Source: Bacillota bacterium (GTDB lineage: Bacteria > Bacillota > Bacilli > Alicyclobacillales > Alicyclobacillaceae). Taken from it: a stretch of 12,592 nucleotides of DNA. The notes beneath the pieces were generated by a model, which saw only the letters and a program-made list of their open reading frames with translations, ran no database searches and was not told the DNA's origin. The stretch spans positions 1-12,592 of the forward strand of contig JAKAXI010000024.1 in assembly GCA_021816665.1 (NCBI GenBank), read 5' to 3'. A program made the position numbers and the translations under genes. This document shows, piece by piece, positions 2,362 to 8,249 of the stretch (positions are counted from its first letter, which is position 1; each line of letters starts with the position of its first letter).

Positions 2362-3663
2362 ATGTCCGGTATGCACAATGTGGACGCCTCGGAGCCGGCA
2401 TCTGGCGTACGAGGACTGGACATAGAAGACATCCGCCGCGCATTTCACACCGTGCAGGAAGTCACTGTCGATACCCCGCTCACGCGCAACGCCGTGCTCT
2501 CCGACCGCTACAACTGCAACGTGTATCTCAAACGGGAAGACCTTCAGCGCGTCCGCTCCTTCAAGATCCGAGGCGCTTACAACTTTCTGCGCAATTTGTC
2601 TGCCGATGAATTGATACGCGGAGTCGTCTGTGCGAGTGCAGGCAATCACGCGCAGGGAGTGGCCTACTCGTGCCGACAGCTTGAGGTGCACGGGTCGATT
2701 TTCATGCCGACCACAACGCCGCGTCAGAAAGTCTCTCAGGTGAAACTGTTCGGTGGGTCTTTTGTCGACGTCCACCTGATCGGCGACACCTTCGACGATG
2801 CGTACGCGGCAGCCATTGCCTACTGCAACGAGAATCAGCGCATTTTTGTGCACCCGTTCAATGACCCGCTGATCGCGGCCGGACAAGGGACGGTAGGCAT
2901 CGAAATGATCAATCAGATGGACGCGATGAAGACACCGGTCGACTTTGTGTTCATGAGCATCGGTGGGGGTGGACTGATTTCTGGTGTCGGCAGTTACGTC
3001 AAGGCGGTCAGCCCTTACACGAAAGTAATAGGTGCGGAACCTGCAGGGGCTCCGTCGATGAAACGATCGTTCGAAGCAGGCAAGGTAGTTGCTCTCGAGG
3101 AGATCGACAAGTTTGTGGACGGTGCAGCCGTCAAGCAAGTTGGACAGCTCACGTACGAGGTCTGCAGAGAAGTCGTGGATGATATCGTGATTGTACCGGA
3201 AGGGAAGACCTGCACCACCATTCTCGAACTGTACAACGAGAACGCCATTGTGGCAGAACCAGCTGGCGCCATGCCGATCGCAGCGCTCGACTTTTACCGC
3301 GAAGAGATCGCTGGGAAAAACGTAGTCTGCGTCATCAGTGGTGGGAACAACGACATTGACCGGATGCAGGAGATCAAAGAGCGGTCACTGATCTACGAAG
3401 GGCTGATGCACTACTTTCTCATCCAATTTCCGCAGCGCGCAGGCGCCCTGCGCGAGTTCATTGATCTTGTGGTTGGCCCTGATGACGATATCACGCGCTT
3501 TGAATACATTAAAAAGAACAACAAGGAAAACGGCCCCGCACTCGTAGGCATTGAGTTAAAGCAGCGCGAGGACTACGCGCCGCTGATGGATCGCATGCGG
3601 ACGCACGGGATCTCGTATATGGAAATCAATCGCGATCCGGCCCTCTTCCAACTTCTCATTTAG
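2362..3663 (+). CDS. ilvA: Threonine dehydratase (threonine ammonia-lyase), biosynthetic type
   Basis: This 433-residue PLP enzyme converts L-threonine to 2-oxobutyrate and ammonia, the first committed step of isoleucine synthesis in the cytosol. Family signatures are in order: the PLP lysine in SFKIRGAYNF (Lys68), SAGNHAQGVA (92-101), the phosphate-cradling SIGGGGLISG (199-208), and VISGGNND near residue 325 closing the catalytic domain. Residues about 344-430 (GLMHYFLIQFPQRAGALREF onward) form one C-terminal ACT-like regulatory domain, where isoleucine and valine act in related enzymes. Length fits the short Firmicutes IlvA type of about 420 residues. The ATG at 2362 is set by AGGAGAGGAG just upstream. 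The next gene begins four bases after the stop, implying co-transcription with the AlaR/AlaT-like pair. A catabolic role cannot be excluded, but the regulatory domain favours biosynthesis. Confidence 0.95.
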   Translation: MSGMHNVDASEPASGVRGLDIEDIRRAFHTVQEVTVDTPLTRNAVLSDRYNCNVYLKREDLQRVRSFKIRGAYNFLRNLSADELIRGVVCASAGNHAQGVAYSCRQLEVHGSIFMPTTTPRQKVSQVKLFGGSFVDVHLIGDTFDDAYAAAIAYCNENQRIFVHPFNDPLIAAGQGTVGIEMINQMDAMKTPVDFVFMSIGGGGLISGVGSYVKAVSPYTKVIGAEPAGAPSMKRSFEAGKVVALEEIDKFVDGAAVKQVGQLTYEVCREVVDDIVIVPEGKTCTTILELYNENAIVAEPAGAMPIAALDFYREEIAGKNVVCVISGGNNDIDRMQEIKERSLIYEGLMHYFLIQFPQRAGALREFIDLVVGPDDDITRFEYIKKNNKENGPALVGIELKQREDYAPLMDRMRTHGISYMEINRDPALFQLLI

Positions 3664-3667
3664 GGTC

Positions 3668-4189
3668 ATGAAAAAAGAGGCAGGTGTAGCCCCCGTGAAA
3701 GATGTGAAAGAACTCGAGCTGTTGCGGCTCCTCGCAATGGATTCGCGACTGTCCACGCAGACGCTGGCAACACTGGTTGGCACCTCGCAAGAAGAGGTGG
3801 AACAAGCGGTCCGGGAGCTCGAACAGAAGCACGTCATCCTGCGCTATTCGACGGTGATTGACTGGGAGAAAGTTGCTACTCCACGGGTAACGGCCGTGAT
3901 CGAAGTGAAAGTCATTCCGCAGCGGGAGGTCGGCTTTGACGCCATCGCGGAGCGAATTTATCGGTTCCCGGAGGTGCGGTCGGTGTTCTTGATGTCTGGC
4001 GGCAACGACTTGCAGGTGACCGTGGAAGGAAGCGACCTACAAGCCATCTCTCGTTTCGTGTCCGAAAAGCTCGCTACGATTGAAAACGTCCACTCGACGA
4101 CGACCCACTTTATGCTGAAAAAGTACAAGGAAGCTGGCGTTATCTTCGACGATCACGAAGATGACCGCCGCCTCGTGGTTGCGCCATGA
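3668..4189 (+). CDS. alaR: Lrp/AsnC family transcriptional regulator, AlaR-like
   Basis: This 173-residue DNA-binding protein has the two-part Lrp/AsnC layout. An N-terminal winged helix-turn-helix covers about residues 14-62 (ELELLRLLAMDSRLSTQTLA, LVGTSQEEVEQAVRELEQ). A C-terminal RAM ligand-binding domain covers about 72-150 (VTAVIEVKVIP, FPEVRSVFLMSGGNDLQVTV). Such regulators form octamers or dimers that sense amino acids. Its stop overlaps the start of an AlaT-like aminotransferase by four bases, the same pairing as Bacillus subtilis AlaR (YugG) with AlaT (YugH), where the regulator governs alanine synthesis. Hence the symbol, given by similarity and context. The ATG at 3668 has only a weak ribosome binding site and may rely on coupling to the upstream gene. 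A GTG about nine codons later (MKDVKELELL) is a credible alternative start. The C-terminal tail (DDHEDDRR) is charged and probably flexible. Confidence 0.88.
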   Translation: MKKEAGVAPVKDVKELELLRLLAMDSRLSTQTLATLVGTSQEEVEQAVRELEQKHVILRYSTVIDWEKVATPRVTAVIEVKVIPQREVGFDAIAERIYRFPEVRSVFLMSGGNDLQVTVEGSDLQAISRFVSEKLATIENVHSTTTHFMLKKYKEAGVIFDDHEDDRRLVVAP

Positions 4190-5358
4190 CGATTGGAGCC
4201 CGGAGTCATCGACTGTCTCCCGTTGTAGACGCCATTCCACCTTCTGGAATCCGGCGCTTTTTTGACTTAGCGAATCAAATGGAGAATGTCATCTCCCTCG
4301 GTGTTGGCGAACCGGACTTCGTGACACCGTGGCACATTCGGGAAGCTTCTCTGTACGCACTTGAACGCGGGTTTACGACCTACACATCAAACCGTGGTCT
4401 GCCTGAACTGTGTGAGGCGATCACCGCGTACCTTGAGGACTTCGAACTGCACTACGACCCGGCCGAGGAGGTGCTTGTGACTGTCGGCGGCAGCGAGGCT
4501 ATCGACTTGGCGCTGCGGGCACTCGTATGCCCTGGGGACGAGGTTCTCATCCCGGGCCCTACTTATGTATCCTATCGCCCTTGTGCACTCCTCGCAGGAG
4601 CGACGGTGGTCGACGTGCCTACCTACCCGGAAGATAACTTTCGGTTGACAGCCGAAGCACTTGAAGCCTGCGTCACGTCTGCCAGTAAAGTGTTGGTCTT
4701 GTGCTATCCGAACAACCCGACAGGTGCCATCATGACATCTGATGACTTGGCTGCAATCGCCGAAGTGGCGATTGCTCATGACCTGTTCGTGATCTCGGAT
4801 GAAATCTACGCTGAGTTGACGTACGGTTCCCAGCACGCCAGCATCGCTGCACTGCCAGGGATGAAAGAACGAACGATTGTCGTCAGCGGCCTGTCAAAGG
4901 CGTTCGCTATGACGGGGTGGCGCATTGGCTATGCAGCGGGGCCAGAAGACGTAATCAGCGCGATGCTAAAAGTGCACCAGTACACATCGCTGTGCGCACC
5001 GAGCATGGGGCAGATGGCGGCTCTTGAGGCACTTACGCACGGTAAAGAGGAAAAGGACCGAATGGTCGCCAGCTACGACCGTCGTAGGAGACTGATTGTC
5101 GACGGGTTCAATCAAATGGGTTTGACTTGCCACTCACCGCAAGGCGCTTTCTACGCGTTTCCGGATATCCGGAACACCGGTATGAGTTCGCAAGACTTTT
5201 GCGAAGCGCTGCTGCGTGAAACCCAAGTTGCCGTGGTGCCTGGAGACGTATTTGGGGCAACGGGTGAGGGCTTTATCCGCTGTTCGTACGCTACGTCAGT
5301 CCAGCAAATTGAAGCTGCCCTTGAGCGGATCGCAAAGTTTGTTGACCGCCTGTGGTAA
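4186..5358 (+). CDS. alaT: Class I/II PLP aminotransferase, AlaT-like (alanine transaminase)
   Basis: This 390-residue fold-type I aminotransferase shows all key elements: LGVGEPDFVTPWHIREA (38-54), YPNNPTG (174-180), SDEIYAELTYG (204-214), and the Schiff-base lysine Lys238 in SGLSKAFAMTGWRIGY. A late GFIRCSYATS supplies the carboxylate-binding arginine. Its start region (IPPSGIRRFFDLAN) and end region (AVVPGDVFGATGEGFIRCSY) closely follow, from memory, Bacillus subtilis AlaT (YugH), which transaminates pyruvate and glutamate to alanine and 2-oxoglutarate. The ATG overlaps the regulator's stop (ATGA, 4186-4189) and has no clear ribosome binding site, so translation is probably coupled. Position after IlvA and an Lrp-type sensor fits a small amino-acid operon. 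Substrate range cannot be read from sequence alone, and other 2-oxo acids are possible. Confidence 0.93.
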   Translation: MTIGARSHRLSPVVDAIPPSGIRRFFDLANQMENVISLGVGEPDFVTPWHIREASLYALERGFTTYTSNRGLPELCEAITAYLEDFELHYDPAEEVLVTVGGSEAIDLALRALVCPGDEVLIPGPTYVSYRPCALLAGATVVDVPTYPEDNFRLTAEALEACVTSASKVLVLCYPNNPTGAIMTSDDLAAIAEVAIAHDLFVISDEIYAELTYGSQHASIAALPGMKERTIVVSGLSKAFAMTGWRIGYAAGPEDVISAMLKVHQYTSLCAPSMGQMAALEALTHGKEEKDRMVASYDRRRRLIVDGFNQMGLTCHSPQGAFYAFPDIRNTGMSSQDFCEALLRETQVAVVPGDVFGATGEGFIRCSYATSVQQIEAALERIAKFVDRLW

Positions 5359-6965: not shown

Positions 6966-6995
6966 TTGACATCCGAGCTGAGGTCCGCGTAACAT
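6966..6995 (+). promoter_or_regulatory. Sigma-A-type promoter of the T-box/DAHP synthase transcript
   Basis: A perfect -35 TTGACA (6966-6971) and a -10 TAACAT (6990-6995, four of six consensus bases) are separated by 18 bases. The implied transcription start is near 7002, about 15 bases before the first base-paired nucleotide of T-box Stem I, as expected for such leaders. Confidence 0.75.
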
Positions 6996-7245
6996 GATAC
7001 CAATTCAATACAAAAACGGCTTTGATGAAGAGAGTACGGATTCGGATCAGTCCAGAGAGTCGGTGGTTGGTGCAAACCGAACTGAGCTGAATTTCGGAAG
7101 TTCACTTCTGAGCCGCAGGGTGAAGCTCCTTTGACATCACGTCTACGAGTGAGTTGTAGCCTGAGCCGGAAATGTCCCAACGTTTCCGTTATCACAACGA
7201 AGTGAAAGGCTGCGTGCCTTTTCATGAGGGTGGTACCGCGAGAAT

Positions 7246-7273
7246 GCCTCGTCCCTTTTCGGACGAGGCTTTT
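7246..7273 (+). terminator. First T-box terminator
   Basis: GCCTCGTCC (7246-7254) pairs perfectly with GGACGAGGC (7261-7269) around loop CTTTTC, followed by TTTT (7270-7273). The competing antiterminator pairs GAGG (7226-7229) with CCTC (7247-7250), so the two structures are mutually exclusive. Confidence 0.92.
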
Positions 7274-7335
7274 CATGTTGGTGAGCCCTCGTCAACTGCG
7301 GCGCACGCCTTTACCTAGGGTGGTACCACGAGATT

Positions 7336-7369
7336 CCCTCGTCCCTAACCGGACGGGGGTTTTCTATTT
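7336..7369 (+). terminator. Second T-box terminator
   Basis: CCCTCGTCC (7336-7344) pairs with GGACGGGGG (7351-7359, one G-U pair) around loop CTAACC, followed by TTTTCTATTT (7360-7369). The second antiterminator would pair AGGG (7317-7320) with CCCT (7336-7339). The DAHP synthase ribosome binding site starts only six bases after the T-rich tract. Confidence 0.92.
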
Positions 7370-7391
7370 CAATCAGAGGAGGAATCGTTTC

Positions 7392-8249
7392 ATGTCAAAG
7401 CAAGTTGCGAACAAACCGTACAAACTAGTCAACCGTTCGGCTCATCCAGAATCCACTGTTGTGCGGGTCGGCAAGCATTTTGTCGGCGACGGTTCCCCCA
7501 CGGTCATTGCAGGTCCTTGCTCGGTGGAGAGCCGAGAACAAATCCTGGATATTGCAGAACAGCTTAAACAGTGCGGTGCACACATGCTGAGAGGCGGCGC
7601 GTACAAACCGCGCACCTCTCCGTACGCCTTCCAGGGACTCGGCATAGAGGGTTTAGAGTACCTGGCGCAAGCCAGAGAGGCGACAGGGCTTCCGATCGTA
7701 TCGGAAGTCATGGACACAGGCAGCTTACCGGCAGCATGCGAGTACATCGACGCGATTCAAATTGGGGCCAGGAACATGCAGAACTATCCACTGCTGCGGG
7801 CGGTTGGAAAGACGACAAAGCCGGTGCTCTTAAAACGGGGATTGTCGGCCACCATTGAGGAGTGGTTGATGGCGGCGGAATACATCTTGAACGAGGGTAA
7901 CTCGAACGTGATCCTCTGTGAGCGGGGGATTCGCACATTCGAGACGGCCACTCGAAACACCTTGGATCTCAATGCTGTACCTGTGGTTAAAGACCTGACG
8001 CACTTGCCTATTATCGTAGACCCAAGTCACGGTGTGGGGATTGCACGTTATGTTCCAGCCATGAGCATGGCTGCGCTCGCGGCAGGTGCCGATGGTTTAA
8101 TCCTTGAAGTTCACCAGACACCCGAAACAGCGTTGTCCGATGGCCAACAGAGCCTCACGCCACTTCAGTTTCACCAGCTGATGAAAAGAGTTGAACACTA
8201 CGCGGCGTTTCAGGATAGTTTCGACACGGAGGCGTCCTTGTACGGCTGA
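7392..8249 (+). CDS. aroF: 3-deoxy-7-phosphoheptulonate (DAHP) synthase, class I-beta, lacking the ACT-like regulatory domain
   Basis: This cytosolic enzyme condenses phosphoenolpyruvate and erythrose 4-phosphate to DAHP, the first shikimate pathway step. The 285 residues show IAGPCSVES (39-47), [19 protein letters not shown] (66-84), [10 protein letters not shown] (122-131), KPVLLKRG (143-150), [11 protein letters not shown] (174-184) and VDPSHGVG (209-216). Probable metal ligands are Cys43, His213, Glu239 and Asp250. These four match, at a constant offset of 59, the ligands I recall for the Thermotoga maritima enzyme, whose first about 64 residues are a feedback ACT-like domain. That domain is absent here. 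The ATG is fixed by AGAGGAGGA (7375-7383), and the sequence upstream is the T-box, not hidden coding. No chorismate mutase domain is fused at either end. Control is therefore expected mainly at transcription, through the phenylalanine T-box. Confidence 0.95.

Follow-up and report, generated by a model that had tools for sequence, protein, structure and literature searches.

The leader of the DAHP synthase gene in the window (the whole stretch of DNA that was analyzed, 12,592 nucleotides from a genome of the Alicyclobacillaceae) raises the question of how a T-box with a single Stem I can serve two antiterminator/terminator tails, the second of which comes without a complete Stem III. DAHP synthase is the first enzyme of aromatic amino acid synthesis. 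The features of the locus, with coordinates in the window, are as follows.

6966..6995, + strand: promoter-like site (TTGACA, 18 bases, TAACAT), predicted, 10 of 12 by consensus scan
7013..7259, + strand: complete Phe T-box leader, from Stem I to the first antiterminator (RF00230, 111.8 bits, model positions 1-219)
7101..7103, + strand: specifier UUC (Phe), from the context GGAAG-UUC-AC and the Rfam alignment; fits the anticodon GAA of the sister-genome tRNA-Phe
7200..7204, + strand: purine string AAGUG (RRRxG motif) 5' of Stem III, by sequence
7205..7210, + strand: Stem III 5' strand AAAGGC, a single copy, common to both tails in the proposed model
7211..7215, + strand: Stem III loop UGCGU, which can pair with linker 7301-7305; proposed toehold
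7216..7221, + strand: Stem III 3' strand of tail 1, GCCUUU
7227..7255, + strand: antiterminator 1, with GGG/CCC, bulge UGGUACC, and helix A2 GCGAG/CUCGU
7246..7273, + strand: terminator 1 and short U run (hairpin 7246-7269)
7274..7316, + strand: linker of 43 bases, without a Stem I
7301..7312, + strand: putative second Stem III 3' strand, GCCUUU at 7307-7312 plus the loop-pairing bases 7301-7305
7317..7345, + strand: antiterminator 2, with bulge UGGUACC and helix A2 ACGAG/CUCGU, A-U replacing G-U
7336..7363, + strand: terminator 2 and short U run (hairpin 7336-7359)
7392..8249, + strand: DAHP synthase gene, 285 amino acids (NCBIfam NF006421, 453.6 bits; TIGR01361, 399.9 bits)

One Stem I and two tails

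The initial annotation had described a repeat of the T-box core at an exact 90-base offset, and this was borne out. Positions 7227-7255 and 7317-7345 are identical at 26 of 29 bases, with differences at bases 12, 18, and 20. Two hundred dinucleotide shuffles of 7003-7369 gave 29-base self-matches of 21 identities at most, and a chance repeat was therefore rejected. Each copy holds a T-box and then a terminator, also as annotated, with terminator-like hairpins and a T run at 7246-7269 and 7336-7359. The region of terminator 1 (7225-7274) folds at -23.0 kcal/mol, a stability that 0 of 200 shuffles equaled, and the U runs of both terminators are short, with four U each. Each of the cores folds into helix A1 (GGG/CCC) and helix A2, with UGGUACC as the bulge. 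By sequence, antiterminator and terminator are mutually exclusive in both tails because strands 7248-7255 and 7338-7345 belong to both structures.

Rfam model RF00230 gave one T-box above its gathering cut-off of 93, at 7013-7259 (111.8 bits), with UUC at 7101-7103, in agreement with the single Stem I and TTC specifier that had been annotated. Positions 7262-7400 matched only the antiterminator part of the model (positions 186-216) at 24.7 bits, below the cut-off. Because the match there covers only model positions 186-216, no second Stem I, Stem II, or complete Stem III was seen in 7262-7400 with this covariance model. The search for a second Stem I had been named in advance as the check on the single-Stem I reading, and it found none, either there or in the 43 bases that, as annotated, separate the first terminator (T run included) from the second T-box. 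A complete second T-box, and thus a complete tandem, was rejected since RF00230 found no second Stem I with a specifier. The covariance match and the two terminators together establish a leader with one Stem I, a Phe specifier, and two antiterminator/terminator tails in series, rather than a complete tandem T-box.

The specifier UUC agrees with the pathway of the downstream gene and with the tRNA-Phe of a sister species, Alicyclobacillus sp. ALC3, which has the anticodon GAA and whose ACCA end pairs with the UGGU of the bulge in both tails. One search of the genome of the window itself, an assembly that is 72.6% complete, gave no tRNA-Phe match, and the hits of another search there are candidates. 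Between the window and ALC3, antiterminator 2 (7316-7344) and terminator 2 (7336-7364) are identical at 29 of 29 positions each, antiterminator 1 at 27 of 29, and terminator 1 at 28 of 29. Upstream of the T-box and in the same direction (2362-5358) are ilvA (threonine ammonia-lyase), an open reading frame of 173 amino acids, and an aminotransferase gene.

The G-to-A change at the twelfth base of the second T-box is present as described, and it gives helix A2 of tail 2 an A-U pair at its foot where tail 1 has G-U. Among the 29 loci introduced below, A occurs at this base in 2 of the 29 first tails and 3 of the 29 second tails, with U opposite it in these five. The change was therefore rejected as a sign of decay, A at base 12 being found in 5 of 58 tails and always facing U. 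Passages of PMC7583486 assign to the G-U pair at this place chiefly the rejection of amino acids on the tRNA 3'-OH. The A at base 12 removes that pair, and therefore tail 2 may discriminate somewhat differently, although such changes occur in either tail.

The duplicated tail in other genomes

Vitreschak et al. are said to have described, in 2008, a class of T-boxes with duplicated terminator-antiterminator elements. The initial annotation called duplication of the terminal module less usual. That judgment has to be qualified: the element is of a known kind and is frequent in the family, but it is rare among the genomes sampled from the rest of the class. Two T-box cores 72 to 102 bases apart (start to start) were found at 21 places in 18 of 41 Alicyclobacillaceae genomes. 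Longer spacings added 5 of the 41 (one of these already counted) plus 1 of the 41, and shorter spacings gave 0 of 41, for a total of 23 of 41 family genomes with duplicated tails at the spacings searched. In an even sample of the class, searched only at spacings of 72 to 102, 13 of 398 genomes matched, 12 of 30 inside the family and 1 of 368 outside it; the outside genome was the sole one with a double tail among 23 genomes of its own family. Genomes were also reached from 47 of 80 DAHP synthase loci, and 1 of the 47 had a double tail. That double tail, reached from Alicyclobacillus ferrooxydans, has the same coordinates as both matches of genome G019 in the family search. Eleven stretches of viral contigs fit the double T-box pattern, and none was a T-box by inspection. 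The genome of the window has five other T-box matches, with a second core in none of their loci.

Twenty-nine loci were studied: the 21 with spacings of 72 to 102, the 5 and 1 with longer spacings, L138 from the class sample, and the DAHP synthase locus L016, with a spacing of 218. A complete T-box was confirmed by the covariance model in 10 loci and the window, with the specifier motif relied on elsewhere. Read by motif, the specifier is UUC in 20 of 29 and UAC in 9 of 29, which is Phe or Tyr in all 29. The downstream gene encodes DAHP synthase in 19 loci (assigned with family models for L129, L133, and the window and for the others by matches or from the reading frame by eye), chorismate mutase in 8 (6 of them checked), an HMGL-like protein in L132, and a sodium symporter in L138.

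Several loci have features of their own. L138, from another family of the class, has a duplicated-tail Phe T-box with a sodium:neurotransmitter symporter gene, and the shared-strand pairing considered below can form there too. A complete T-box precedes the T-box bearing the extra tail in L010 to L013 and L015. There is also a further T-box upstream of the extra-tail T-box in L117, L119, L127, L135, L136, and L124 (DAHP synthase); both specifiers in these six loci, read by motif, are Tyr, and Phe in L124. The DAHP synthase leader of L133 (also L017 and L038) has the bulge UGGC in tail 1 and UGGU in tail 2 with a single UUC, so that different discriminator bases would suit its two tails. Rfam matches to BsrG of 33.2 and 43.3 bits, below the gathering threshold of 55, lie close to the DAHP synthase T-boxes of L010 and L012 (about 3087-3377, + strand).

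Predicted pairing of the linker with the Stem III 5' strand

It had been annotated that each copy can form its own antiterminator. This is correct in that both cores are intact, and it needs amendment in that tail 2 is without a complete Stem III and seems to make use of the 5' strand from the Stem III of tail 1. By sequence inspection, the purine string is also a single copy in the window, with none ahead of the second tail. Judged from its complementarity to the sole 5' strand (7205-7210), the linker segment 7307-7312 is a predicted second Stem III 3' strand, and linker bases 7301-7305 could form pairs with the loop of Stem III (7211-7215). For the 5' strand, the calculated duplex energy is -15.7 kcal/mol with the linker strand versus -9.0 kcal/mol with the tail 1 strand.

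Folds of the window leader were computed with a model that takes the RNA alone, without tRNA, tertiary contacts, or kinetics. When terminator 1 and antiterminator 2 were both imposed, the form with the shared strand came out 4.4 kcal/mol lower in energy than the form with the first Stem III (-63.9 versus -59.5 kcal/mol). Folded without constraints up to the end of antiterminator 2, the leader had the helix of the 5' strand with the linker (Stem III') and helix A2 present and helix A1 absent. Once terminator 2 was made, the two Stem III forms were equal in energy (-78.7 and -78.5 kcal/mol). An alternative for the linker is a self-fold of -9.7 kcal/mol (last 40 bases). In 8 of the 29 loci, namely, the window (7274-7300), L118, L119, L120, L126, L132, L133, and L137, the first T-box core (GGGUGG) has a complement in the 5' part of the linker, at a shuffle fraction of at most 0.025. 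This complementarity hints that, once readthrough has occurred, tail 1 may be sequestered by that part of the linker, which would help to retire it.

The complementarity of linker and 5' strand goes beyond swapped and shuffled controls. Linkers were swapped between loci with 24 representatives of the 29, and the 5' strand plus loop was paired with the last 22 linker bases. The native mean was -12.1 kcal/mol versus -9.1 kcal/mol for permuted linkers (z = -6.5), a value that 0 of 100,000 permutations reached, in a test whose results the relatedness of the loci inflates. Three other 22-base control segments gave z values of -1.8, -0.65, and -0.87, the first of these, segment -44 to -22, being a weak trend. 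When the test was divided by part, the native value was reached by 0 of 20,000 permutations for the 5' strand alone and 158 of 20,000 for the loop alone, and the linker part from -22 to -12 alone had no enrichment (2393 of 20,000). Compared with shuffles of its own linker, p was below 0.05 in just 13 of 24 loci. Relative to a copy of the tail 1 strand, the native duplex was more stable in 15 of 24 loci and less stable in the other 9. Among 21 hand-picked pairs of loci, the native combination was favored in 17, the swap was favored in 3, and 1 was level.

In partition-function calculations with helix A1 of antiterminator 2 imposed, the probability of linker pairing exceeded 0.5 in 27 of 29 loci, where shuffles lead to an expectation of 2.5 of 29 (100 shuffles per locus). 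The two exceptions were L124 (0.46) and L118, in which the linker has its own AAGUG and Stem III. When instead helix A1 of antiterminator 1 was imposed on the transcript before the linker, the first Stem III exceeded 0.5 in 26 of 29. An exact copy of the tail 1 strand placed in the linker still swapped in 25 of 29 loci. Because such exact-copy linkers swap, folding alone would also be compatible with a passive copy, and the case for selection rests on the swap permutation, part of the covariation, the diverged cells, and the loop pairing.

Covariation was evaluated in an alignment of 23 of the 29 loci (L016, L122, and L138 to L141 left out) that was not fitted to the structure. The swapped helix, that is, the 5' strand with the linker, had 74.6% paired cells versus 68.4% when shuffled (reached by 1 of 500 shuffles), and its covariation score was reached by 8 of 500; both measures were lower at every slide of the strands. 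The number of cells changed on both sides was reached by 13 of 500 shuffles, and it was 16, versus 16 and 17 at slides of -1 and +1. Pairs with both partners changed (96 of 500) and pair types (239 of 500), the two counts described as least inflated by relatedness, were ordinary compared with shuffles of the 23 loci. Covariation support for the swapped helix is thus mixed, because it is these least inflated measures that are ordinary. In the same alignment the ordinary Stem III was above shuffles on none of the five measures.

Sites at which the linker has diverged from tail 1 offer a separate view. Linker and tail 1 carry different bases in 55 cells, and in 32 of these the linker base pairs with the 5' strand, where 18 were expected; 14 of the 32 pair only in the linker, and another 17 cells pair only in tail 1. 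Permutation of whole linkers over those same columns reached the native value in 6 of 5000 trials. For example, GAGAGG in L128 pairs with CCUCUC of the linker, and with its own strand it needs G-U there. The comparison of L125 with L137 shows an A-U pair replaced by G-C at a site that the ordinary hairpin leaves in its loop.

How the second tail might read tRNA

We lean slightly toward the reading that the leader is a Phe-specific transcriptional T-box of the duplicated-tail kind in which both tails are built on one Stem III 5' strand and a single tRNA is relayed between them. Stem I would bind tRNA-Phe through UUC and keep it. An uncharged tRNA would have its ACCA end held by Stem III together with antiterminator 1, and the polymerase would pass terminator 1. 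The emerging linker would then gain a toehold by pairing with the loop of Stem III and displace the first 3' strand, generating Stem III', while tail 1 would collapse into terminator 1, by then harmless inside the new Stem III' loop. This exchange would bring Stem I, its bound tRNA, and the one purine string up to antiterminator 2, which would test the same tRNA again before terminator 2. The outcome would be a lower leak and fewer errors, with two serial charging checks for DAHP synthase. AND-like control by terminators in series, which the initial annotation had raised, is plausible from this arrangement. The annotation had also allowed for either the same tRNA or two tRNAs, and a shared Stem III strand would favor a single one. 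Formation of Stem III' in the cell, the use of one tRNA by both tails, and the effect on expression are what we infer from the anatomy of the locus and the pairing across loci. Stabilized by tRNA, antiterminator 1 may resist invasion while transcription proceeds, which would count against the handoff.

It is also conceivable, though we consider it unlikely, that each tail works alone, with antiterminator 2 taking the end of the same tRNA or a second one without a Stem III and the linker strand being a leftover of the duplication. The intact and conserved core, bulge, and terminator of the second tail would be expected of such independent tails, as would the swapping of exact-copy linkers in 25 of 29 models and the counts of doubly changed pairs and pair types, which do not exceed those of shuffles. 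A leftover would not be expected to pair in a locus-specific manner (0 of 100,000) and into the loop (158 of 20,000), or to keep pairing at 32 of 55 diverged cells when 18 were expected. Furthermore, in the passages of PMC7583486 that concern it, Stem III, with the purine string (RRRxG motif) on its 5' side, is reported to be indispensable, and an antiterminator that had no Stem III showed no appreciable binding of tRNA.

If the second tail were mainly an extra terminator that cuts leak, with little response to tRNA, the short U runs of four would provide it with a task, because each window terminator may leak for that reason. However, all 29 loci retain the tail 2 bulge and antiterminator strands (the core as set by the search pattern, the 3' strand as found in each), and these parts are identical in the sister species. 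Conservation of these parts counts against a fail-safe because a plain terminator would not need them, and we regard this function as improbable. The prospect that the second tail is a remnant of a complete tandem T-box that lost its second Stem I and has no special function is very slight. Complete T-box pairs do precede the same gene in relatives (L010 to L013 and L015), but there the tail-only module comes after the second of the two complete T-boxes, to which it is an addition, and the presence of duplicated tails in 23 of 41 genomes together with the identity in the sister species argues against decay.

The relay of one tRNA over a shared Stem III strand can be placed among known systems. 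Like transcriptional T-boxes of RF00230, the leader has Stem I with a specifier, a Stem II region, Stem III, a bulge, an antiterminator/terminator, and an amino acid gene downstream; unlike them, it has a second antiterminator/terminator whose own Stem III part is only a 3' strand. Complete tandem T-boxes such as those of L010 to L013 and L015 also place at least two tails before one gene, the same gene as here, but each has a Stem I, whereas the window has one. Partially tandem, or duplicated-tail, T-boxes likewise have one Stem I and two tails; in the papers searched, no account of them was found that includes the shared Stem III 5' strand or the proposed strand exchange. Partially tandem T-boxes are a known kind, and a 2020 review, in its passages on them, calls their mode of action unknown. 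In the strand-exchange riboswitches of group 3, as passages of PMC10907184 present them, a later strand displaces an earlier one and changes the state, as proposed here; unlike those, the exchange in the window would move a bound tRNA between output modules. No description of a shared Stem III strand was found in the open literature, a scope outside which most subscription papers lie, and the shared strand is absent from the relevant passages of PMC7583486, PMC12452182, PMC2494555, PMC2965389, PMC7778990, PMC9481103, PMC10907184, and PMC11477304. Therefore, the element is of a known kind, with the shared strand a variant not found in print.

A shared Stem III strand would provide a concrete, testable answer to how partially tandem T-boxes work, and it would explain how a tail without a complete Stem III could still read tRNA. 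Whether the answer extends to duplicated-tail T-boxes as a whole is more tentative, and our confidence falls somewhat short of even that they are double-check devices in which the linker and the loop toehold rebuild the discriminator and one tRNA is inspected twice. If they are, then these leaders would perform a serial check of tRNA charging with RNA alone, a form of proofreading by strand exchange, and would offer a design for steeper tRNA-responsive switches.
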